A stretch of 51,253 bases of DNA, from the NCBI GenBank assembly GCA_017398805.1, contig JAFQEZ010000083.1:1-51253 (forward strand), in the 5' to 3' direction. This DNA is from Bacteroidaceae bacterium (GTDB taxonomy: Bacteria; Bacteroidota; Bacteroidia; Bacteroidales; Bacteroidaceae). This document shows, in pieces, positions 2,685 through 25,849 of this stretch (positions are counted from its first letter, which is position 1; every line of letters begins with the position of its first letter). The notes below the pieces were generated by a model. That model was given only the letters and a program-made list of their open reading frames with translations. It was not told the DNA's origin and did not search any database. The translations under genes were made by a program, and so were the position numbers.

Positions 2685-4868
2685 ATGAATGTTGTTACAA
2701 AAAATGTGGCACTGCCCGATGGACGCGTAATCACCATTGAGACAGGTAAGTTGGCAAAGCAGGCCGACGGTTCTGTTATGTTGCGTCTGGGCAATACGAT
2801 GTTGCTTGCCACAGTCTGCGCAGCGAAGGATGCTGTGCCAGGCACCGATTTTATGCCTTTACAGGTAGAGTACAAAGAGAAGTATGCGTCATTCGGACGT
2901 TTCCCCGGCGGTTTCACAAAGCGTGAGGGTAAGGCTTCGGATTATGAGATTCTGACATGCCGTCTGGTTGACCGCGCTCTGCGTCCTCTCTTCCCGGATA
3001 ACTATCATGCTGAGGTTTATGTAAACATCGTGCTCTTCTCGGCCGACGGTGTTGACATGCCTGATGCACTTGCGGGTCTTGCCGCTTCTGCAGCACTTGC
3101 TGTTTCTGATATCCCATTCGGTGGTCCTATCTCCGAGGTACGTGTTGCACGTATCGGAGGCGAGTTTGTGGTTAACCCCACATTCGCTCAGCTCGAGGAG
3201 GCTGATATGGACATCATGGTTGCCGCTACATACGACAACATCATGATGGTCGAGGGCGAGATGAAAGAGGTTTCAGAGAACGACTTGCTTGAGGCAATGA
3301 AGGTTGCTCACGAGGCAATAAAGGTTCATTGCAAGGCTCAGATGGAACTTATGGAAGAGGTTGGCTCTACCGTCAAGCGTGAATATTGCCACGAGGTTAA
3401 CGATGAAGAACTCCGCGCTCAGGTTCATGAGGCATGCTATGCAAAGGCATACGCAGTTGCTGCAAGCGGAAACAACGACAAGCATGGTCGTGGTGCTGCT
3501 TTCGAGGCTATCAAAGAGGAGTTCAAGGCACAGTTCACCGAGGAGGAACTCGAGGAGAAAGGTGCTCTCATCGACCGTTACTACCACGATGTAGAGAAAG
3601 AGGCTATGCGTCGCTGCATTCTCGACGAGGGCAAGCGTCTCGATGGCCGCAAGACTACAGAGATACGTCCTATCTGGTGCGAGGCAGGTTATCTTCCCGG
3701 CCCTCACGGTTCTGCAGTCTTCACACGTGGCGAGACACAGTCTTTGACAACCGTTACACTCGGTACAAAGCGTGACGAGAAGATTATCGACGATGTCATG
3801 AACCAGGGTACAGAGCGTTTCTTGCTTCACTACAACTTCCCTCCATTCTCAACAGGTGAGGCACGTGCACAGCGTGGTGTAGGCCGTCGTGAGATAGGTC
3901 ACGGTAACCTTGCTTGCCGTGCACTCAAGAACATGATTCCTGCCGATTATCCTTACTGCGTACGCGTGGTTTCCGATATCCTTGAGTCTAACGGTTCTTC
4001 TTCAATGGCTACAGTATGTGCAGGTACACTTGCACTCATGGATGCCGGTGTAAAGATAAAGAAGCCTGTATCAGGTATCGCAATGGGTCTTATCAAGAAC
4101 GCAGGCGAAGAGAAATATGCTGTCCTCAGCGATATCCTTGGCGATGAGGACCACTTGGGCGACATGGACTTCAAGGTAACAGGTACTGTTGACGGTATCA
4201 CTGCTACACAGATGGATATCAAGGTCGACGGTCTTTCATACGAGATCCTTGAGAAGGCTCTCAACCAGGCACGCGAAGGTCGTATGCACATCCTCGGCAA
4301 GATTACCGAGTGCATTGCAGAGCCACGTGCAGAACTCAAACCGCATGCTCCACGCATCGAGACAATGCGTATTCCTAAGGAGTTCATCGGTGCTGTCATC
4401 GGCCCGGGCGGAAAGATTATCCAGGGTATGCAGGAGGAGACCGGTGCTACAATCTCTATCGAGGAGGTTGACGGTGAAGGTATCATCGAGATTGCAGCAA
4501 ACAACGGCAATGCAATCAACGAGGCTATTGCCAAGATTCGCGCTATCGTTGCTATCCCCGAGGCAGGCGAGGTTTACGAAGGTACAGTACGCAGCGTGAT
4601 GCCTTATGGTGCTTTTGTTGAGTTCATGCCTGGCAAGGATGGTCTGTTGCACATTTCAGAGATTGACTGGAAGCGTTTCGAGACAATGGAGGAGACCGGC
4701 ATCAACGAGGGTGACAAGCTTCAGGTTAAGCTTGTTGAGATTGACCCTAAGACAGGTAAGTTCAAACTCTCTCGCAAGGTTCTTCTTGATAAGCCCGAGG
4801 GCTATGAGGAGCGCGAGCGCCGTCCACGTCGCGAGCGTGAGCCACGCCGTCCACGTGGAAACGAGTAA
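2685..4868 (+). CDS. pnp: Polyribonucleotide nucleotidyltransferase (PNPase)
   Basis: 727 residues, full length. Order: first RNase PH domain (about 10-145), alpha-helical linker, second RNase PH domain (about 330-545) with catalytic aspartates in [16 protein letters not shown] near residue 485, KH domain with the GPGGK loop near 573, and S1 domain (about 625-695; [20 protein letters not shown]). It degrades RNA 3' to 5' phosphorolytically in the cytoplasm. The C-terminal tail after the S1 domain is short and very Arg-rich (RRPRRERE type), a probable extra RNA contact. Followed by a strong terminator at 4881-4910. Confidence 0.98.
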
Positions 4869-16001: not shown

Positions 16002-16895
16002 ATGAAAAAAAATACTTTACTAACTGCATCTTTGTTTATTGCAATCGGTGCATGGCTCCTGTCCGCTTGCACAGGAAACGGTGAAACTCCAAAGAGAGAT
16101 ACAAAGGACACACTTGTAAAAAAGCCGGTATCGGCCGAAGACGCGGAACTTGAAGAAACACCGAAACCGGCAGTACCGGACAACTCTTTCAAGACCCGTG
16201 AATTCACCGTCAACGGTGTCAGCTTCAAAATGGTAGCCGTTGCCGGCGGCGAATTCAGAATGGGCTCAGATGATGGAGAAGGTGATGAAATACCCGTACA
16301 TGATGTAACCCTTAGCGACTACTACATAGGCGAGACAGAGGTAACCCAAGCCCTCTGGGAAGCTGTAATGGGCAGCAACCCCTCATATTTTAAAGGCAGC
16401 GACAACCCCGTTGAGTGTGTAAGCTACGATGAGTGCATAACATTTGTAAAGAAACTGAACGATAAATTGAAGGCCGCTGGTCAATTGCCTGCCGGTCGTG
16501 AGTTCCGTCTCCCCACCGAAGCCGAGTGGGAGTATGCCGCCCGTGGCGGCAACCGCTCGCAAGGCTACCGGTACAGCGGCAGCAATACCCGCAGCAGTGT
16601 TGCGTGGTATTATGGTAACAGTAAATATAGAACACATCCTGTAAAAAAGAAGCAAGCCAACGAACTCGGCCTTTACGATATGAGCGGCAATGTGTGGGAG
16701 TGGTGCTATGACTGGTATAGCAATGGTTACTCCTCATCGTCGCAGACCAACCCCAAAGGACCCTCAACGAGCTATAGCCGCGTGCTCCGCGGGGGTGACT
16801 GGAACTACGATGCGCAGGGCTGCCGCGTCGCTGACCGTGGCAGCCTCCCTCCCGACCGCCGTGACATCTGCATCGGCCTGCGCCTCGCCCTCTAA
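16002..16895 (+). CDS. FGE/SUMF-fold lipoprotein
   Basis: 297 residues. Signal peptide with lipobox LLSAC, then a low-complexity charged linker (about 30-65), then a formylglycine-generating-enzyme/sulfatase-modifying-factor domain (about 70-297): MVAVAGGEFRMGS, ETEVTQALWEAVMG, LPTEAEWEYAARGG, YDMSGNVWEWCYDW and RVLRGGDWN. True FGEs end in a catalytic Cys pair and GFR; here the end reads CRVADRG...ICIGLRLAL without that arrangement, so a binding or structural role is more likely than formylglycine synthesis. Stand-alone gene; no sulfatase gene nearby. Confidence 0.88.
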   Translation: MKKNTLLTASLFIAIGAWLLSACTGNGETPKRDTKDTLVKKPVSAEDAELEETPKPAVPDNSFKTREFTVNGVSFKMVAVAGGEFRMGSDDGEGDEIPVHDVTLSDYYIGETEVTQALWEAVMGSNPSYFKGSDNPVECVSYDECITFVKKLNDKLKAAGQLPAGREFRLPTEAEWEYAARGGNRSQGYRYSGSNTRSSVAWYYGNSKYRTHPVKKKQANELGLYDMSGNVWEWCYDWYSNGYSSSSQTNPKGPSTSYSRVLRGGDWNYDAQGCRVADRGSLPPDRRDICIGLRLAL

Positions 16896-17927: not shown

Positions 17928-19559
17928 TCAATTGCCAAAAGGTGTTTTACTTACAATCTCAACAACCTCGCCACTGACAGGATGCTGGAATTTCAGTTCC
18001 GAAGCATGCAGCATCAGCCTTTCGCCCACAGTTCCGTAGAGTGCATCCCCTATTATGGGAGCATCGAGGCCACAAGGATGAGCCGCATGTACACGCAGCT
18101 GATGAGTGCGCCCGGTCAACGGTTCGAACTGAACAAGAGCAGTCCGTTTCCCTTCGTAATCAAGGATATCGATAATCTTGTAACGGGTAACAGCCTCTTT
18201 CCCTGTCTCATAATCGACACGCTGCAGCGGCCGGTTTTCATAGTCGGAAGAGAGCGGCAATTCCACCACTCCGCTGTTGCATGCAGGAACACCATCGAGC
18301 AATGCCATATACCGTTTGCCCACCTGACGCGATGCGAATTGCTGCTGCATAGCCTTATACACCTCAATGGATTTTGCCGCCACAAGGATTCCCGAAGTAG
18401 CCATATCAAGACGGTGAACCACAAAGAGTTCATTGGTTCCAAGATATTTCTCGCGCAGCCATTGCTGCACCGACATTCCGCCAACAATCCCGGGGACAGA
18501 GAGTACACCCGAGGGTTTGTCCACCACAACAAGATACTCATCTTCAAAAAGAACCGATAACGAAGTGATGTTGCCACCCTTTTCAAGCGTATTCTCCTCG
18601 ACATCGAGTCCTTGGAGCATATATGACAATATCGGTTCGCACTTGCTCTTGCATGAACCATAGAAACATCCGTTGCGGCGTATCTCATGCACAGGTGTCT
18701 CGCCCACCCAGAACTCTGCCATGGAAAGCGGTTTATAGCCTTGGAGATATGCATACTGCAACAACTTGGGTGCCGCACACTCGCCTGCACCTGCAGGCGG
18801 CAATGTTCCGCGTGACGAAGAGAATATATCAAGAAGAGTGCGTTCCTCGCCAATGGCATTCTTCATCCTGAACTGCATGAAAAGCCACTCCTGCAGGGCC
18901 GCCGAACGCTGCTTGCGTTCCTCTTTCAGGTTCTTCAGTTCCTCTTCGAGTGGAGCCTGTTCCTTAGCACTATCGGCTATACGCATTTTCCACGAAGCCG
19001 TCAGCCTTTTGAGTTCAGCCTTCTGGAACTGGCTTTCGCGGATAAGCGCTGCCTCTTCATCTGCTGTGAGGTTGCCTGCGGCACGGAGTGCATCACGTCT
19101 TTGCTTGCTTTTGCGCATGCTTTCACGCATGGCAGAAAGTTCCTGTTCCATAGCAATCTTCAACGCATCTGTTGAAGAACTATTGCAAACAGTTTCAAGT
19201 TCCCTAATTTTTGTATTAAGAGAGGAGATCTCACTCTCCTCACGTTTGAAATAGCCGTCAGGGGAAAGGAAATTGAACACAGGAGGCACAAAACCGTCTA
19301 TCATATTACGCCCGGCAAGAAGCCCCGAAAAAGCTGCAAGGAAACCGATTCCACCTTTTGCATCCTCGACAACGAGCACACCGAACATCTTGCCATTTGC
19401 GGCATCGGCTGCAGCAGCCTCATCGGCAAGCAGAAAGGCACGTAACTCATCGGCTGCAATAACGCATAACCGATGAGGTAAATAGTAGAATGGATTATTG
19501 AACCTCAACGGCGGTTCAATACCAGTGATATCTTGGCGGAATCTATGCAGTAATTGCAT
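17928..19559 (-). CDS. RluA-family RNA pseudouridine synthase with long N-terminal extension
   Basis: 543 residues from ATG 19559, which shares one base with the stop of the upstream gene (TGATG). The C-terminal third is the RluA catalytic domain: VVDKPSGVLSVPG, the catalytic Asp in VHRLDMATSGIL near residue 386, and GRTHQLRVHAAHP. The first 300 residues are extra: a domain of about 100 residues, a charged coiled coil (about 105-215), then a CxxxC-containing segment (GCFYGSCKSKC). Such long RluA proteins occur in Bacteroidetes; the RNA target is unknown. It isomerises uridine in rRNA or tRNA in the cytoplasm, an odd partner for the exported proteins in its operon. Confidence 0.9.
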   Translation of the reverse strand: MQLLHRFRQDITGIEPPLRFNNPFYYLPHRLCVIAADELRAFLLADEAAAADAANGKMFGVLVVEDAKGGIGFLAAFSGLLAGRNMIDGFVPPVFNFLSPDGYFKREESEISSLNTKIRELETVCNSSSTDALKIAMEQELSAMRESMRKSKQRRDALRAAGNLTADEEAALIRESQFQKAELKRLTASWKMRIADSAKEQAPLEEELKNLKEERKQRSAALQEWLFMQFRMKNAIGEERTLLDIFSSSRGTLPPAGAGECAAPKLLQYAYLQGYKPLSMAEFWVGETPVHEIRRNGCFYGSCKSKCEPILSYMLQGLDVEENTLEKGGNITSLSVLFEDEYLVVVDKPSGVLSVPGIVGGMSVQQWLREKYLGTNELFVVHRLDMATSGILVAAKSIEVYKAMQQQFASRQVGKRYMALLDGVPACNSGVVELPLSSDYENRPLQRVDYETGKEAVTRYKIIDILDYEGKRTALVQFEPLTGRTHQLRVHAAHPCGLDAPIIGDALYGTVGERLMLHASELKFQHPVSGEVVEIVSKTPFGN

Positions 19560-21430
19560 CAATGATTGTATTTGACATCATTCTCCGGGTCAAAGCCACC
19601 CTCGAAGTCATTATCCTTGATTTCCGCATTCTTCACGCGCTCGAACAGGAAGCGGTGCTTATTCCAGTGGAAAGGCTTATAGTCGTTGTTCTGAATCACC
19701 TTGTTTCCTTTGAACACCAGGCCATCGAGTGATTTTGCATATACGATTGGGGCATCGAATGTCTCGAATATGTTGCCTTCTATCACCACACCTTTACCTT
19801 TGCCGCCATGGAAATACTTCTGTTGCGATGCAAGGTCGGGAATCTCGGGATAGATAGATATGATTGCATTTGTAAACTGGAACATATTGGTAAGCGAGTT
19901 CACGAACCGGTTACCACGGATTACGACATTGCGGCACGCACCGGTCTCGTACCATCCGTTGCAGTCGCCACAGAGCAGGATTGCAGTACCCGATGTGTGG
20001 TCGAACAGGTTCCCCTCGACAACCACCTTCTGCGGAGTGCTGAAAAGTGCACCGCGTGCACGGTTGTTGCGCACAATATTACCCTTGAACGTTACGCCGG
20101 GAGTCCACTCAAGGTTCTCCACGCCATAGTTGCCGTTGGCGATATCGGATGGAACAGGTTTCTTGAAACGGATTATAAATTCCTTTGTTCCGTCGAGTCT
20201 GAAATTCCAGACAACTCTGTCACTCGACAGACAACCATCAACGACTTCTTTATTGTATGGCTTAATCTCTTCAATGACATTCTCGCCTGCAAGTTCCATA
20301 GTCGATGACTTCACGAACTGCACCTTGTCGTCATCATCACCCCAATAGAAACCGTATGACTGTCCGTGCATATAACGGCCAACGACAGTATAATCATCAA
20401 TACGCTCTACTATGCGCAGATATGTACCGTGAACATTGATGGCATCGTCCATCATGCCCTCGTAAAGGCCGCCTGTAGAGACAATCTTTCCCTTGCAGCC
20501 CGAGAAGTGAGTTGCATCGGCCTGTGTGGTGAAATAGCGTCCGCTACCTTCGCGGATTGCCACATTGAAGCCGCGGAGAGTGATATCCTCGCAAACCTGG
20601 GCAAGGAGTCCCATACCCTCGGCATAATGAACCGTTATATTTTCGAGCAAAGTATTTTCATTGCCATAGAGGAATATACCGGGAGTGGGACGCTGATATG
20701 AGCGCATTGCAATGACAGTACCGGGAAGCAAACGTGCATCCTTCCATGGAGCCTTTATCACGCGTGGAGAGAGTTCCTGTACATTGCTTGTGCCAAGACC
20801 AATGTCGCTTGTATTATAGACAACATGTTTGGTATCACCCTCGAAGGCGATGCCCCATGAAGGATGTATTTCCCAGTTCTCACCGTAAGCCACGAATTTA
20901 CCGTTTTTAATCCTGTAATTCACGTAAGGAGCAACCTCATACACAATCGTGCCATTCTCTGTATCATTTTCAAGCACCTTTACCTGAGTAATCTGCGGAA
21001 CACGGGTATCGATATTGAGGTTCTTTATTGCACAATCCTCGCAATCGATCATCACCACAGGCAACATGCGGCCATTCATATTGAACGTGGAGCCACCGCC
21101 GTCGAGAACAAAGTTTTCCATATCCTCAATGACAACAGCAACACTCTTGGGATTATCCTGGTCATGGTTGCTTATATACAGCTCACGTTGATGCCCGTTA
21201 TTATAGAAGAAATCATACTCACCCTTCTTGAAACGGAGTACGGCAGCCTTGCCGTCACGCTCTTGCTTTATTATCTGAATGGCTCTGGCAACAGCCTTTG
21301 TAACATCCTTGCCCGTGTTCGGAAGAATACCGAAATCAGCTGCACGGTACACCTTTCCGGCTGTTCCACACGATACCAGACCAAGCAGAAGCAATTGCAT
21401 CAATGCAAGTATAAAAAAACGATTTTTCAT
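19559..21430 (-). CDS. GH110-like alpha-1,3-galactosidase, beta-helix lipoprotein
   Basis: 623 residues from ATG 21430. The open frame runs 32 codons further up, but the signal peptide begins here and a promoter-like element (21453-21484) lies inside the extension. Lipobox LLGLVSC, then a right-handed parallel beta-helix with many G-N-x-F/V turns. YRAADFGILPNTGKDVTKAV and the DD motif GMMDDAINVHG (D328-D329) fit GH110 enzymes of Bacteroides, which remove alpha-1,3-galactose from blood group B or linear glycans by inversion. Substrate range is an inference. First gene of the operon with rluA and the lysozyme-like gene. Confidence 0.78.
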   Translation of the reverse strand: MKNRFFILALMQLLLLGLVSCGTAGKVYRAADFGILPNTGKDVTKAVARAIQIIKQERDGKAAVLRFKKGEYDFFYNNGHQRELYISNHDQDNPKSVAVVIEDMENFVLDGGGSTFNMNGRMLPVVMIDCEDCAIKNLNIDTRVPQITQVKVLENDTENGTIVYEVAPYVNYRIKNGKFVAYGENWEIHPSWGIAFEGDTKHVVYNTSDIGLGTSNVQELSPRVIKAPWKDARLLPGTVIAMRSYQRPTPGIFLYGNENTLLENITVHYAEGMGLLAQVCEDITLRGFNVAIREGSGRYFTTQADATHFSGCKGKIVSTGGLYEGMMDDAINVHGTYLRIVERIDDYTVVGRYMHGQSYGFYWGDDDDKVQFVKSSTMELAGENVIEEIKPYNKEVVDGCLSSDRVVWNFRLDGTKEFIIRFKKPVPSDIANGNYGVENLEWTPGVTFKGNIVRNNRARGALFSTPQKVVVEGNLFDHTSGTAILLCGDCNGWYETGACRNVVIRGNRFVNSLTNMFQFTNAIISIYPEIPDLASQQKYFHGGKGKGVVIEGNIFETFDAPIVYAKSLDGLVFKGNKVIQNNDYKPFHWNKHRFLFERVKNAEIKDNDFEGGFDPENDVKYNH

Positions 21431-21452
21431 AATTGTGTTCCAATTTATTTTA

Positions 21453-21484
21453 CGAAAATAATATCTTTCATTCAATTCAACAAG
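21453..21484 (-). promoter_or_regulatory. Likely promoter of the GH110-rluA-lysozyme operon
   Basis: Minus strand: CTTG at 21481-21484, 20-bp spacer, TATTTTCG at 21453-21460, 22 nt before ATG 21430. Near-consensus Bacteroidetes promoter. Confidence 0.5.
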
Positions 21485-21599
21485 GCGACACACCAGAGCT
21501 CTTTGCAAAAATCCAAATGCCTCCACCGCAAGCGATTATGAGGAGTAGAACAGATGGAGAAAGTAGCTCTCGCTTACTAGTAGTTTTCAGTTTTCGCCG

Positions 21600-23579
21600 T
21601 TATTCTGAGACAGGGCGGACGAAGTGCGTGCCGTTACGACTTTGCCGGTTCATACCACGATTACAACTTTGAAAATGCCCCTCATTGAAGTAAAAATAAT
21701 ATGCCATGTCGCTATGATTGTCGTCAGTCGTAGCACTCCATAAGCCGTCATGAGTAATTTCGCCATAAAATATTCTACCTGGAGCAGGAATAAAGATACT
21801 TTCGCCGTTTTTCTTGCTTATCACTTTGCAACCGTTTACTTCGTTTCTGGTTGTCCATTCCCATTCACAGTTATCTATGAGTTCCTCGAAGTCGGCCTTA
21901 GTTGGCATGCGCCAAGTGCCTCCCCACTTTACATGGGCAACATCATATTTTGTACCACTTATATTTATACCAATATCGATAATTTTTGATTCTTTTTTCG
22001 CCTCGGTCTCACCCCAAGCATAGTAATCGCCATAATCCTCGGGGGCGCTTGCGCCAACATTGCAGCTGGCCCATTTCAAGCCACTTGGCAAACCAAGATC
22101 AACCCATTCATGACTGTTTATTGTGCCGTGGGCTGGCATCTCTGCCGGAGGATGGGCAAGTAGAACTTCGGGGTCTTCTTCAATAGCTCTAACAGTGTCT
22201 TTAACATCTGTAAATTCTCTCTTTGAGGCACTACCGCTGCTGTTCATGGCAAACCATGTGCATGCTCCTGCAACAAGAAACAGAAGGAGTATTATCCATG
22301 GCATCCTGTTGCTTTTGTTACCACCCGCATTGTCATTGCCTTTAGCCCCTGTGGGCTGCGAACTTTGTTTCTGACGAGCGCTCACGGAATTGTCATTCTG
22401 ACGACCAGAGGGAGGAAGAATCTCTTTATTCGCGCGTTGAGGAGATTTCTCACGTTCGCTCGAAATGACAGTGTCGGCAACAAAAGTTTCTGCGGAGTCT
22501 TCAACTGAACTCCCTCCCCCTGCGGGTACTCCCTCTATGAACAGAGGGAGAGTTTCGGCACCTATATTTTCATTTTTTCCTTTGCCCTTGATGTTTTCAA
22601 CAGGACAACCTCCACTTTTCTCATTTGACTTCGTCGAACCTGCTTCCGCTCGCTGCAAAAACTCAAATGAATTTGATTTTTGCTCGATTACTCGCAGCTT
22701 TCTCATTTCTCCTTTCTCATTTTTGCTGTCAAACAGCAAAAGGAACTCTTCAATACTCTGCGGACGCATGCGTACTGCGGGCTGCATGGCAGACTCCACT
22801 GCTGCACGCACAGCAGGGGATACTCCCTCGGGCAGAGCCGGAAGGCCGTAGTTCATTACCTCGCTCGCCTTGGGAGGACGGGCACCGGCGAGCAGGCAAA
22901 AGAGTGTGGCACCAAGAGCATAGATGTCGGTTGCCGGGGTAAACTCTTTCAGTGCTCCTGCTTCGTACTGCTCAAGCGGGGCGTAGCCTTCGCTTATGCC
23001 CACCGTAGCACTGCTGGTTTGAGAACCGCCTTCATCGTAGTGTTTGGAGATGCCGAAGTCTATGAGTACCGCCTGACCTTTCTTGCCGAGCATTATGTTG
23101 GCCGGCTTTATGTCGAGGTGAAGGAGTTTGTTGGCATGAACTTCGGCAAGGGCATCGGCTACTTGGCGGATGTAACTGACGGCAGTTGCTTCGGGCATTA
23201 CGCCTTGCTCTTTAACCACTGCTGCAAGGCTCTTCCCTTCGAGATACTCCATTACGTAGTAGGCTGTGCCATTCTCTTCAAAGACATCGTGGATGCGTAT
23301 TATGTGAGAATTATCAAACGAGGCTATCATACGTGCCTCCTTCAGGAATTTCTGTTTGAAGCGGTCAACAAGCTCCCTGCTGCCGACTGACGGCACAGAA
23401 ACGCGTGAGGTACCGGTATCGCGGTTGCAGTGCTCTTTCATAAAGAACTCTTTAACTGCCACCTTGCGCCCGAGAGCTGTCTGCTCGGCAAGATAAGTTA
23501 TGCCGAAGCCACCCTGACCGAGTATATCCAATATGCGGTATTTTCCGCCTTGTAAATCAGTACCTTGTGTAAGTTGCAT
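21600..23579 (-). CDS. Hanks-type Ser/Thr kinase with TM and FISUMP domain (kinase 1)
   Basis: 659 residues. Kinase domain about 13-275: Gly loop GQGGFG (21-26), Lys43, HLD (154-156) in place of HRD, Asn161, DFG (174-176), and APLE in place of APE. All ATP/Mg ligands are kept, so activity is likely. Residues about 276-420 form a low-complexity linker partly encoded by interspersed repeats. One TM at about 427-444 puts residues 490-659 in the periplasm; this part is a FISUMP (Fibrobacter succinogenes major paralogous) domain starting HEWVDLGLPSGLKWASCNVGA. Layout parallels PASTA kinases but with a different sensor. The paralogous kinase 2 lies upstream, separated by a 407-bp repeat-rich gap. 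Confidence 0.9.
   Translation of the reverse strand: MQLTQGTDLQGGKYRILDILGQGGFGITYLAEQTALGRKVAVKEFFMKEHCNRDTGTSRVSVPSVGSRELVDRFKQKFLKEARMIASFDNSHIIRIHDVFEENGTAYYVMEYLEGKSLAAVVKEQGVMPEATAVSYIRQVADALAEVHANKLLHLDIKPANIMLGKKGQAVLIDFGISKHYDEGGSQTSSATVGISEGYAPLEQYEAGALKEFTPATDIYALGATLFCLLAGARPPKASEVMNYGLPALPEGVSPAVRAAVESAMQPAVRMRPQSIEEFLLLFDSKNEKGEMRKLRVIEQKSNSFEFLQRAEAGSTKSNEKSGGCPVENIKGKGKNENIGAETLPLFIEGVPAGGGSSVEDSAETFVADTVISSEREKSPQRANKEILPPSGRQNDNSVSARQKQSSQPTGAKGNDNAGGNKSNRMPWIILLLFLVAGACTWFAMNSSGSASKREFTDVKDTVRAIEEDPEVLLAHPPAEMPAHGTINSHEWVDLGLPSGLKWASCNVGASAPEDYGDYYAWGETEAKKESKIIDIGINISGTKYDVAHVKWGGTWRMPTKADFEELIDNCEWEWTTRNEVNGCKVISKKNGESIFIPAPGRIFYGEITHDGLWSATTDDNHSDMAYYFYFNEGHFQSCNRGMNRQSRNGTHFVRPVSE
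22391..22470. repeat. Palindromic repeat inside kinase 1 (family A)
   Basis: TGTCATTCTGA...GAATCTC / GAGATTTCTC...GAAATGACA, imperfect arms of about 30 bp around a 14-bp loop. Read in frame it gives linker residues about 370-396 (TVISSEREKS...NKEILPPSGRQNDNS). Nearby in the same linker, 22513-22552 holds another repeat-like stem (CTCCCTCT...AGAGGGAG). Confidence 0.75.
22637..22700 (-). repeat. CGAGC...CAAAT-ATTTG...CGAGCG repeat inside kinase 1
   Basis: On the minus strand: CTGCGAGTAATCGAGC, then CAAATTCATTTG, then GCAGCGAGCG. It has the same plan as the intergenic copy at 15846-15905. It encodes part of the linker (LRVIEQKSNSFEFLQRAEAG). A shorter half-copy occurs in kinase 2 at 24856-24895. 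Confidence 0.5.
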
Positions 23580-23986
23580 CGTGTTTTGTCAATAATTGTT
23601 TACACATGTTCAGTTTCACAAATTTAACGTATTCCTCATAATTTTACAAGTTCAATACATTTTTTTACCGTTTTTTTCCTACATAACAGTTCTGTAGGCA
23701 CGATTCAGGCTCAAAGCAAACTCCTTTCCTGTCACAGAGGCCTGTCATTCTGACGACTGAAAGGAGGAAGAATCTCTGTTTACGCGGAGTGAGATTTCTC
23801 ACTACCGTTATTCGCGTAACTCATCGAAAACCTCTTTTGATTTTTTCATTAAGGTATGGTCGAAATGAGAGTATCCGCAGAGTGACACTCCCCTCCGTCA
23901 CTGCGCGACACCTCCCCTCCAAAAGTGGAGGAGTTTTCTAAAGCAATGATCGTTTCGCTTTCAATTTTCCGTTTTCAGTTTTCGGT
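23580..23986. repeat. Repeat-filled gap between the two kinase genes
   Basis: No gene. It contains a family-A palindromic repeat at 23743-23869 (TGTCATTCTGA...GAATCTC, GAGATTTCTC, an extra stretch of about 50 bp, then CGAAATGAGA) and, at 23888-23935, a CTCCCCTCC...GGAGGAG element like the one in kinase 1. The kinase 1 promoter is at its left end. Confidence 0.65.
23619..23650 (-). promoter_or_regulatory. Likely promoter of kinase 1
   Basis: Minus strand: CTTG at 23647-23650, 20-bp spacer, TAAATTTG at 23619-23626, 40 nt before the ATG. Kinase 1 can therefore be transcribed separately from kinase 2. Confidence 0.5.
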
Positions 23987-25795
23987 TCACTTACATACGG
24001 GGCGCACACTGAAACCAAGGCTGAGGCCGTCGCATTGCCAACCCGAGCTACGGCGATCCTCATCGAAGAGAAGGTAGTACACAGCATCGTTAGGACTCTC
24101 CTCGACAGGCGTAGCACTCCAGTAGTTACCGTTCACCCCTGGGTCGCCGAACGACGTACCGTCGCGGTAAGCGGCGGCAGGAAGAAAGATACTGTTGCCA
24201 TTCATCTTGCTAATTACCTTGTAGCCATTTATTCCATTTTCTGTAGTCCATTCCCATCTACAGTTATTCTCATCAAGCAGTTCGTCAAAATCCCGCTTTG
24301 TCGGCAAATGCCAACCGCATTCCCGGGCTTCATTACTATTCAAATAGTAGCCAATACCACTTGGAGTACTTGCACCGGCATTACAGGTAGCCCATTTAGT
24401 ACCACTTGGTAAGCCTAAATCAACGTATTCGTAACTTGCCGTATCATATTCGATTTTATCTTCCTTGTTTACTACACCGGATACAAACCACGCATACACT
24501 CCTAAAACAAGCAACAGCAAGAGTATTATCCATAGGAATTTCCCAGACTTCATTTTTTGAGATTTCTCACTGCCGTTCGAAATGACATTGCCGGCGGAGC
24601 GTTCTTTCTCATTTCTCCTTTCTACTTTTTCCTTTCCGTCTTTGTCATTATGACGACCATCCGCGGAATTGTCATTCTGAGCGGAGCGAAGAATCTCGTT
24701 ATTCGCTGGTTGAGATTCTTCGCTTACGCTCAGAATGACAGCATCGGCGGAATCAGGAACCTCTACTACATCAATGGAGTGAAATTCGTCGGCAACAAGT
24801 TTTCCGTTTTCACCTTTCACATTTCCGTTCAGCTCAGTTTCGCCGTCACTTCCATCTTTGACTTCGTCCAAACTGTTTTCGCTCGCTTTGTGCGTGAATA
24901 AATTCTCACCCTCTCGCTTACCCACAGTTTTCATCTCTCCACTTTCCACTAACCGAACAAACTCTCCAATGCTTTGGGGACGCTTGTTCTTGTTCATCTG
25001 CATCGACGCTTCAACTGCATGACGTACAGTGGCTGATATTGCCGCCGGCAGGGGTTCGAGTTCCTCGCCACTTGAGCGCAATGAGGCATCGACCGGTGTT
25101 ATGCCTGTCAACAGTTTATAAAGCGTAGCACCAAGAGCATAGATATCTGTAGCAGGAGTAAAGCGCCCGACACTGCGGCTCATCTGTTCGGGAGGAGCAT
25201 AACCGGGAGTGCTGCCCATGAGTGTAGAGGTGTTTTCATTGGCAACCTCGTCGTACTGTTTGGAGACACCGAAGTCAATGAGCACCACCTTGCCGCTGTT
25301 GTCTATCATTATATTGTGCGGCTTCACATCAAGGTGAAGGCGGTTAAGAGAGTGGACATACTCAAGGGCATCAGCCGTCTGGCGTATATACCAGACAGCC
25401 TCATCTTCGGGGAGTGGACCGCAATCGGCTATCAGGCCGGCAAGCGAATTGCCTTCGACATAATCCATAACATAGTATGCAGTGCCGTTCTCTTCGAACT
25501 TGTCGGTAACGCGTACTATATTCGGATGATTCATGCGGTAGAGCGCTTGCGCCTCTTCGACGAATTTACGACGAACACGACCAACAAGTTCCACTTTGCT
25601 TTGTGTTGCAACGGTAACATGACCGCTCACACTGTCACGGTTGCAGAAATCCTTCATATAAAACTCTTTGATCGCGACATTGCAATCCATTTCAACGTTC
25701 AGAGCCTCATATGTGCAGCCGAAGCCACCGCTGCTTATGTATCGGATTATCCTGTATTTACCCCTGTTCAGCAGAGTACCTATCTGTAGATGCAT
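23987..25795 (-). CDS. Hanks-type Ser/Thr kinase with TM and FISUMP domain (kinase 2)
   Basis: 602 residues, paralogous to kinase 1 throughout. Kinase domain about 13-275: Gly loop SSGGFG (first Gly replaced by Ser), Lys43, HLD-V-K in place of HRD, DFG, and APPE. Linker about 276-420 with translated repeats (ILSVSEES, EILRSAQNDNS). One TM at about 422-441, then a periplasmic FISUMP domain (about 456-602) beginning YEYVDLGLPSGTKWATCNAGA. It lacks the YAWGETE insertion found in kinase 1, so the two sensors may recognise different things. Own promoter at 25818-25849; no phosphatase gene is adjacent. Confidence 0.9.
   Translation of the reverse strand: MHLQIGTLLNRGKYRIIRYISSGGFGCTYEALNVEMDCNVAIKEFYMKDFCNRDSVSGHVTVATQSKVELVGRVRRKFVEEAQALYRMNHPNIVRVTDKFEENGTAYYVMDYVEGNSLAGLIADCGPLPEDEAVWYIRQTADALEYVHSLNRLHLDVKPHNIMIDNSGKVVLIDFGVSKQYDEVANENTSTLMGSTPGYAPPEQMSRSVGRFTPATDIYALGATLYKLLTGITPVDASLRSSGEELEPLPAAISATVRHAVEASMQMNKNKRPQSIGEFVRLVESGEMKTVGKREGENLFTHKASENSLDEVKDGSDGETELNGNVKGENGKLVADEFHSIDVVEVPDSADAVILSVSEESQPANNEILRSAQNDNSADGRHNDKDGKEKVERRNEKERSAGNVISNGSEKSQKMKSGKFLWIILLLLLVLGVYAWFVSGVVNKEDKIEYDTASYEYVDLGLPSGTKWATCNAGASTPSGIGYYLNSNEARECGWHLPTKRDFDELLDENNCRWEWTTENGINGYKVISKMNGNSIFLPAAAYRDGTSFGDPGVNGNYWSATPVEESPNDAVYYLLFDEDRRSSGWQCDGLSLGFSVRPVCK
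24559..24587. repeat. Half copy of repeat family A inside kinase 2
   Basis: GAGATTTCTCAC...TCGAAATGACA, one arm only, in frame, encoding residues about 403-412 (VISNGSEKSQ) just before the TM segment. Confidence 0.6.
24670..24740. repeat. Palindromic repeat inside kinase 2 (family A, best copy)
   Basis: Arms 24670-24697 and 24712-24740 are nearly perfect inverted repeats (TGTCATTCTGAGCG...GAATCTC), loop of 14 bp. In frame it encodes AVILSVSEES...NNEILRSAQNDN, residues about 352-375. Position, orientation, frame and flanks (CGGAATTGTCATTCTGA) match the copy in kinase 1. Confidence 0.8.
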
Positions 25796-25817: not shown

Positions 25818-25849
25818 CGAAGATAACTCATTTGTTAAAGACTTGCAAA
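25818..25849 (-). promoter_or_regulatory. Promoter of kinase 2 (TTTG-N20-TATCTTCG)
   Basis: Minus strand: TTTG at 25846-25849, 20-bp spacer, TATCTTCG at 25818-25825, 23 nt before the ATG. Confidence 0.75.

Follow-up and report, generated by a model that had tools for sequence, protein, structure and literature searches.

Several described systems share parts of their design with two tandem genes, here K1 and K2, located in a 51,253-nucleotide stretch of a Bacteroidaceae bacterium genome (GenBank assembly GCA_017398805.1, contig JAFQEZ010000083.1; the whole stretch is called the window below). PASTA-type kinases (PknB/PrkC/Stk1) are alike in having an N-terminal Hanks kinase domain, a linker, one transmembrane (TM) helix and an outside sensor, which in K1 and K2 is a FISUMP-like domain. 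Their NCBIfam model, NF033483, gave the best match to K1 (7.2e-49), with a score of 167 against a cut-off of 450 and over the kinase and linker only, and PASTA repeats were not found in K1 or K2 by Pfam scan (E<=1). Unlike PASTA kinases, the window family has HLD instead of HRD and comprises 14 paralogues with swapped ends. The closest solved kinase domain is that of PpkA (5hnv, 1.8e-31), from the threonine phosphorylation pathway of type VI secretion, which is not known to include a FISUMP domain. This pathway resembles the present system in its membrane kinase activated from the periplasm, its FHA target and its opposing phosphatase (PMC10482370; this and the following papers are drawn on in excerpt).

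Diversity-generating retroelements (DGRs) have been connected to kinases and to FISUMP domains in separate reports. Cyanobacterial Ser/Thr kinase-CLec proteins have an N-terminal kinase, a C-terminal C-lectin-like domain and dispersed paralogues, some of them DGR-diversified (PMC7517822); in contrast, the Bacteroidales kinases mostly carry FISUMP or FGE domains behind a helix, exchange WG, Sel1 and TonB_C ends and, in the metagenome-assembled genome (MAG) RGIG6215, have a kinase-linked DGR with an HRDC protein. In human gut metagenomes, Fib_succ_major and DUF1566 domains are DGR targets, alike in the diversified FISUMP-type domain at the protein end and unlike in that none is termed a kinase in the excerpted text, the Fib_succ_major example being a lipoprotein (PMC4159848). 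Since FISUMP is a reported DGR target, the kinase-FISUMP architecture acquires a different meaning. The DGR antigen-sensor conflict systems of multicellular bacteria also join CLec/FGE sensors to signalling domains, Pkinase being named among them, but in the excerpts they are mainly STAND NTPase and MoxR systems, and the string "bacteroid" is absent from the text (PMC10907252). The word "kinase" is absent from the main text of a DGR survey (PMC8144416). FISUMP as a DGR target (PMC4159848) and DGR-diversified kinases (PMC7517822) are thus already known separately, and the main new result here is that DGRs, judged from their sequence signatures, diversify sensors of this kind in relatives. No paper on FISUMP kinases was found in the open-licence PMC literature, so a prior description is possible, and that literature gave no relevant paper on WG-repeat kinases of Bacteroid- lineages.

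K1 and K2 are probably inner-membrane receptor kinases of a large family in which FISUMP domains sense ligands, C-terminal modules are exchanged and, in relatives, DGRs hypermutate the sensors. Their features are as follows (labels such as L010, G019 and C94 denote loci, genomes and contigs).

21600..23579, minus strand: K1, Ser/Thr kinase, linker, TM helix and FISUMP, 659 aa (open reading frame (ORF) list and Pfam scan)
22725..23540, minus strand: K1 kinase domain, with HLD, K43, E81, D156, N161, DFG and E203 present
22305..22724, minus strand: K1 disordered linker, made partly of genome repeats (AlphaFold predicted local distance difference test, pLDDT, about 30)
22248..22304, minus strand: K1 TM helix, residues 426-444 (hydrophobicity and AlphaFold model)
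21603..22115, minus strand: K1 FISUMP domain, residues 489-659, without a visible DGR footprint
23987..25795, minus strand: K2, Ser/Thr kinase, linker, TM helix and FISUMP, 602 aa (ORF list and Pfam scan)
24947..25756, minus strand: K2 kinase domain (Pfam scan, paralogue alignment)
24539..24946, minus strand: K2 linker (DNA comparison with paralogues L005 and L010)
24482..24538, minus strand: K2 TM helix, residues 420-438 (hydrophobicity)
23990..24436, minus strand: K2 FISUMP domain, 26-33 residues shorter than its relatives
23996..24190, minus strand: C-terminal part of the K2 FISUMP, aligning with the DGR variable regions of relatives, with a weak adenine bias

The first-pass annotation had described two kinases with the layout kinase, linker, one TM helix and FISUMP-like end, which was borne out by the ORFs, the Pkinase matches in the Pfam scan (E 6.6e-38 for K1 and 3.4e-42 for K2) and a single hydrophobic helix in each, TM helices being called from Kyte-Doolittle averages. 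In the AlphaFold model of K1, the kinase is predicted with confidence, the linker (~140 residues) has a pLDDT near 30, a helix spans residues 426-446 and the C-terminal domain is partly modelled. Alignment of the 14 paralogues in the genome of the window (the own genome) showed that the ATP lysine K43, E81, the HLD aspartate D156, N161, D174-F-G, E203 and D218 are invariant, and that HLD replaces HRD in the catalytic loop of all 14, so the retention of Lys43 and DFG beside HLD proposed at first holds throughout. These catalytic residues suggest that K1 and K2 are active kinases.

A DGR next to a receptor-kinase gene was found in RGIG6215, where a row of genes encodes a kinase-TM-FISUMP protein, a kinase-TM-FGE protein, an HRDC protein (2.3e-12) and a reverse transcriptase (RVT_1 4e-16). 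Comparison of the template (L187:3832-3959) with the end of the kinase-TM-FGE gene (L041:8114-8241) gave 16 differences in 128 bp, 15 of them at template adenines. The kinase-TM-FGE protein has the marks of a DGR variable protein: a template region/variable region (TR/VR) pair, adenine bias and an adjoining reverse transcriptase. In the genus of the window, contig C47 of G019 has a reverse transcriptase gene together with genes for a bAvd-like protein (4e-7, under the cut-off) and for a FISUMP protein that is truncated by the start of the contig. The FISUMP protein is the target, and all 24 TR/VR differences lie at template adenines; a second G019 FISUMP protein (L047) differs from the template at 28 of 60 adenines and at 1 of 124 other sites. 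The MAG SIG154 has a TR/VR pair with 24 of 25 differences at template adenines, its target being a DUF4988 protein whose end is FISUMP-like by eye, without a Pfam FISUMP match. As read from these genomes, the targets of DGR action are a receptor-kinase gene in RGIG6215, a FISUMP protein in the genus of the window and a FISUMP-like protein in SIG154. A further reverse transcriptase region, in L190 (G377:C35), has a number of FISUMP-like repeats along with partial genes, which look like an array of variable-region copies.

DGRs mutate template adenines, mostly those of AAY codons, and the inverted codon-position pattern described below is their known footprint. Their changes fall at first and second codon positions (PMC10907252). 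Beyond the FLPA motif, the FISUMP domains of seven RGIG6243 kinases had 0.232 nonsynonymous (pN) and 0.093 synonymous (pS) differences per site, while the preceding part had a pN of 0.148 and a pS of 0.361. Differences at the three codon positions of the FISUMP C part were 328/313/112 for the seven kinases and 219/204/48 for six, omitting L147, the most divergent; elsewhere in the six, they were 228/212/441 (FISUMP N part) and 1135/838/2163 (kinase). The third base was fixed in 29 of 38 variable codons of the FISUMP end. Four pairs among four FISUMP kinases of SIG154 showed a similar codon inversion (e.g. 15/18/5 vs 18/16/41), and FISUMP kinases of both MAGs therefore display codon variation that reads as DGR-type. 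The SIG154 template (C20) is not supported as the source of the SIG154 kinase ends, since the six FISUMP kinases examined mismatch it at 31-41% of non-A sites.

In K2, 32 of 57 adenines of the G019 template and 34 of its 122 other sites are changed (p 2.7e-4), and adenine bias was also found in the kinase L006 (p 0.022) and the lipoprotein L015 (p 2.7e-7), both from the own genome; this template belongs to another species and its adenines mark variable codons, so the test alone cannot separate DGR action from shared variable sites. The link of K1 and K2 to DGRs is therefore one of family, with a footprint that hints at it in K2 and is not shown in K1, and the K2 sensor may descend from a DGR-diversified one. 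Contig C94 of the own genome carries a phage-type DGR (L133:4349-4460 and 4665-4776; 10 of 10 TR/VR differences at template A) whose target is a protein unrelated to the kinases; it was rejected as the kinase diversifier, its template matching the 14 kinase genes over no more than 11-20 nt (E 0.24-0.87).

Several results weigh against the favoured reading of K1 and K2. K1 shows no adenine bias against the G019 template (20 of 51 A sites and 38 of 94 others, p 0.62), nor does L010 (p 0.3), and the codon pattern of K2 is weak (17/18/14 vs L015 and 22/25/24 vs L049). No FISUMP-type DGR or reverse transcriptase was found in the own genome (87% complete), no FISUMP template was found by sequence search of 250 kb out of its 2.7 Mb, and the reverse transcriptase at C92 has no near-identical repeat pair of TR/VR size in 3.6 kb. 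No FISUMP kinase was found in other genomes of the genus, among the matches listed, and the four kinases read in G005, of the same genus, carry other ends. RGIG6243, with the clearest codon signature, has only a weak reverse transcriptase match (7.9e-4). The FISUMP assignment of K1 and K2 itself lies under the curated cut-offs (PF09603/TIGR02145 and the related Lcl_C, PF07603): the K1 end matched Lcl_C at 1.4e-6 (29.1 bits, cut-off 34.9), the K2 end matched Fib_succ_major at 1.6e-3 (19.1 bits, cut-off 33.9), and TIGR02145 gave 0.092 for K1 and 2.1e-4 for K2, both below 41.65 bits. Checked for a C-type lectin fold, the FISUMP model (pLDDT 67.9) had no PDB match at E<=0.001 (AlphaFold and Foldseek).

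The stand-alone FISUMP protein L015 (Lcl_C 1.6e-7) and the DGR target of G019 are likewise under the cut-off, and mutual homology among the FISUMP domains is strong despite such scores; K1 shares 60% identity over residues 489-659 with L015, which has the look of an exported lipoprotein. A PDB profile search with FISUMP gave nothing credible, and a relationship between FISUMP and FGE profiles was not shown (hhalign probability 10.8). In an alignment of nine FISUMP domains, that of K2 is 26 residues shorter than K1 and 33 shorter than L035. A YAWGETE block had been read as an insertion in K1; it is instead a loss in K2, the sole aligned domain without it, because the eight others keep sequence there. 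The MAG kinase L152 also lacks the block.

These results bear on a more conventional reading, in which K1 and K2 are ordinary PASTA-like sensor kinases with stable wall- or glycan-binding FISUMP domains, shaped by usual paralogue divergence and with no role for hypermutation in the lineage of the window. The PASTA-like layout, the unbiased K1 and L010 and the absence of a detected FISUMP-type DGR in the own genome fit such kinases, but the inverted codon-position patterns at the FISUMP C-terminal ends of kinases in two MAGs, the real TR/VR pair in the same genus and the bias of K2 and L015 against that template do not, and we regard this reading as rather unlikely, though the best placed of the alternatives.

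Three indications support a position of the K1 and K2 FISUMP domains outside the cytoplasm, as predicted from sequence. The charge flanking the helix (positive-inside rule) places the kinase inside and the C-terminus outside in K1, K2 and 23 of 27 TM kinases, the exceptions being three ties (L010 included) and one reversal. Signal-peptide-like starts, judged by eye with a simple hydrophobicity rule, were found in all 16 of the stand-alone FISUMP proteins whose 5' end is complete, a count that omits 5 of 21 rows (three 5'-cut, one K2 fragment and one doubtful FISUMP). The relative kinase L039 has TonB_C (2e-19) after FISUMP, behind the helix; in sister kinases the helix is followed by TonB_C (L012, 7.2e-20) or FKBP (L094, 2.8e-27). 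On the other side, four FISUMP kinases have no helix, one in the own genome (L006) and three in MAGs (L149, L150 = L040 and L162), so FISUMP is not always outside; the topology first proposed, kinase inside and FISUMP outside, is supported for K1 and K2. A conserved cysteine pair, present in 35 of 40 domains, was rejected as a marker of exported FISUMP because it also occurs in 3 of 4 TM-less kinase copies and is uninformative on export.

The TM-less versions with FISUMP, FGE or WG ends, and the occurrence of WG, Sel1 and MORN-like repeats in the exchanged set, would suit C-terminal domains that are docking modules for substrates or partners rather than sensors, bringing the kinase to targets inside or outside the cytoplasm, a function raised likewise for the cyanobacterial kinase-CLec proteins in the excerpted report (PMC7517822). 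In TM versions, however, the domain sits across the membrane from the kinase, and the stand-alone FISUMP proteins look exported in all 16 cases, making docking an unlikely explanation.

K1 and K2 do not stand alone: by sequence comparison they form part of a large paralogous Bacteroidales family. Searching the own genome with K1 identified a subfamily of 14 kinases, and two more distant proteins came up in a Pkinase search. Among the 14, the C-termini are FISUMP in four (one helix-less), WG repeats in four (one helix-less) and a two-TM type in two, with FGE (helix-less), Sel1, TonB_C and a short end without assignment in one each. In a sample of 393 genomes of the order, the own among them, with at most six candidates scored per genome, 15 genomes had a kinase match at E<=1e-75. 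PEGA-FGE, PEGA-FISUMP, Sel1-TonB_C, MORN-like and FKBP ends were found in some order-level relatives, and a single-protein scan of named genomes gave nine loci. Five MAGs gave 41 matches, some of them fragments (RGIG6243, 18; SIG154, 12; Horse_feces102, 5; a Prevotellaceae bin, 4; RGIG6215, 2), and FISUMP was present in 16 of the 30 examined, 13 with a helix. The architecture thus recurs across several MAGs and genera. The WG, Sel1-TonB_C, MORN-like and two-TM ends were named by eye, and TonB_C, Sel1, PEGA, FKBP, FGE and PP2C were confirmed where scanned. A more distant kinase of the own genome, L022 (G000:C105), has one TM helix and, by eye, BspA-like leucine-rich repeats, and L075, L089 and L094 (G401:C24) are tandem family kinases, whose outside ends comprise an FKBP isomerase (L094), a MORN-like end and a very short one.

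Exchange of C-terminal modules between kinases is shown by sequence comparisons of several kinds. Mapped onto a tree of 27 kinase domains, C-terminal type requires 15 changes, against a mean of 14.7 for shuffled labels. K1 groups with two RGIG6243 FISUMP kinases, a WG kinase and a kinase without an assigned end, while K2 lies in a separate clade (100/100) with L010 (FISUMP) and TonB_C, WG and two-TM kinases. K1, K2 and L006 belong to different lineages on this tree, and their FISUMP domains group together with L015 and L049 of G004 (94/95), the L010 FISUMP lying outside the group. Over nt 196-947, L005 and L006 have 93.75% identity; beyond this, L005 continues as TM-WG and L006 as TM-less FISUMP. 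L005 and L010 fall on opposite sides of the 100/100 split on the tree and have 96.6% linker identity over 206 nt. Blocks of the K2 linker are 86-93% identical to those of both paralogues, the range for L005 being 87-93%. In six RGIG6243 kinase pairs, selected for FISUMP DNA similarity, synonymous divergence (dS) was 0.13-0.30 in FISUMP against 0.97-1.78 in the kinase. A G005 kinase and the PP2C phosphatase encoded three genes further along have an outside domain in common, at 94% over 466 nt.

The linkers contain two kinds of repeats, located as follows.

22392..22424, minus strand: palindromic element, in frame in the K1 linker
24671..24739, minus strand: complete palindromic element (two arms), in frame in the K2 linker
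23744..23776, minus strand: palindromic element copy between K2 and K1
L010:1612-1644: palindromic element in the kinase linker of L010
22624..22654, minus strand: second linker repeat (AGCGAGCG...GACGAAGTCAAA) in K1
24857..24887, minus strand: second linker repeat in K2

The palindromic element has 34 copies in the own genome (none in the reversed control) and occurs in 19 of 41 genomes of the genus. Four copies are read in frame in the linkers of K1, K2 and L010; copies elsewhere are mostly outside ORFs of at least 150 aa and, with their flanks fetched, none was in an open frame of at least 300 aa and six were in doubtful open frames of 166-247 aa. The second linker repeat had five matches without mismatches, in four kinase linkers (K1, K2, L010 and L005) and at one junction of two enzyme genes, and three further matches with two mismatches. 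At L126:946-976 this repeat ends the ORF of an SDR-type dehydrogenase, whose last residues are FTHTASESSFDEVK, like those of the kinase linkers. The linker repeats may supply homology for module exchange. That part of the mosaic is an assembly artefact is very improbable: the detailed comparisons used draft genomes in many contigs, where near-identical repeats such as those of the linkers can misassemble, but the architecture recurs in several MAGs and genera, and neither codon-position inversion nor TR/VR adenine bias is expected from misassembly.

The surroundings of K1 and K2 contain promoter-like sites and genes with possible glycan-related functions.

23619..23649, minus strand: promoter-like site of K1 (TTG-N20-TAnnTTYG)
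25818..25848, minus strand: promoter-like site of K2
19559-21526: GLAA-B-type beta-helix protein gene adjoining K1, with its own promoter-like site at 21453-21483

Five promoter-like sites were found in the window, against 1.04 expected (1 of 100 shuffles reached five). The first-pass annotation had placed glycan genes and a secreted FGE/SUMF lipoprotein beside the kinases. The GLAA-B-type gene does adjoin K1, without a functional link, and an operon with glycan genes is not supported because promoter-like sites were found for K1, K2 and the GLAA-B gene individually. The FGE protein exists at 16002-16895 (FGE-sulfatase 3.9e-49, lipobox-like LLSAC), 4.7 kb from K1 and on the other strand. As possible signalling partners, the own genome has two PP2C and two FHA matches; one PP2C and one FHA match adjoin a divergent kinase at C60:12.9-17.5 kb. 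On this contig, L130:4448-9503 encodes a PP2C, a 328-aa protein, an FHA protein and the divergent kinase in a row; in G005:C15, L136:2005-7833 encodes a subfamily kinase, two FHA-like proteins, a PP2C and then two more kinases.

In the receptor-kinase reading, a FISUMP domain outside the membrane would bind a ligand via its variable C-terminal face, and binding would alter pairing or geometry across the single helix and the disordered linker, switching the cytoplasmic kinase; passage of ligand binding through helix and long linker to the kinase is the most likely mode of action, and PP2C phosphatases and FHA proteins could complete the pathway. It is plausible that K1 and K2 sense separate signals. 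The sensors would evolve by two routes, one in which C-terminal modules are swapped between kinases with breakpoints in the repeat-rich linkers, the linker repeats possibly mediating recombination, and another in which FISUMP or FGE ends are hypermutated by DGRs in relatives. A swapped and hypermutated kind of sensor suggests a shuffled repertoire of signal receptors. More tentatively, and with somewhat less than even confidence, we propose that gut Bacteroidales keep a dozen or more receptor kinases, K1 and K2 included, whose ends are hypermutated by retroelements in cis or trans and reshuffled via the linkers, as an anticipatory, immune-receptor-like form of sensing.

The targets of cellular DGRs in gut bacteria, and their purpose, are largely an open question. 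A receptor kinase as a DGR target couples hypermutation to intracellular signalling, so that both the selection of ligands and the output could be examined in a single protein. Near-identical kinases with different sensors, such as L005 and L006, are natural pairs to test how Ser/Thr kinases read signals, and domain exchange can be seen under way in the family, including one between a kinase and a phosphatase.

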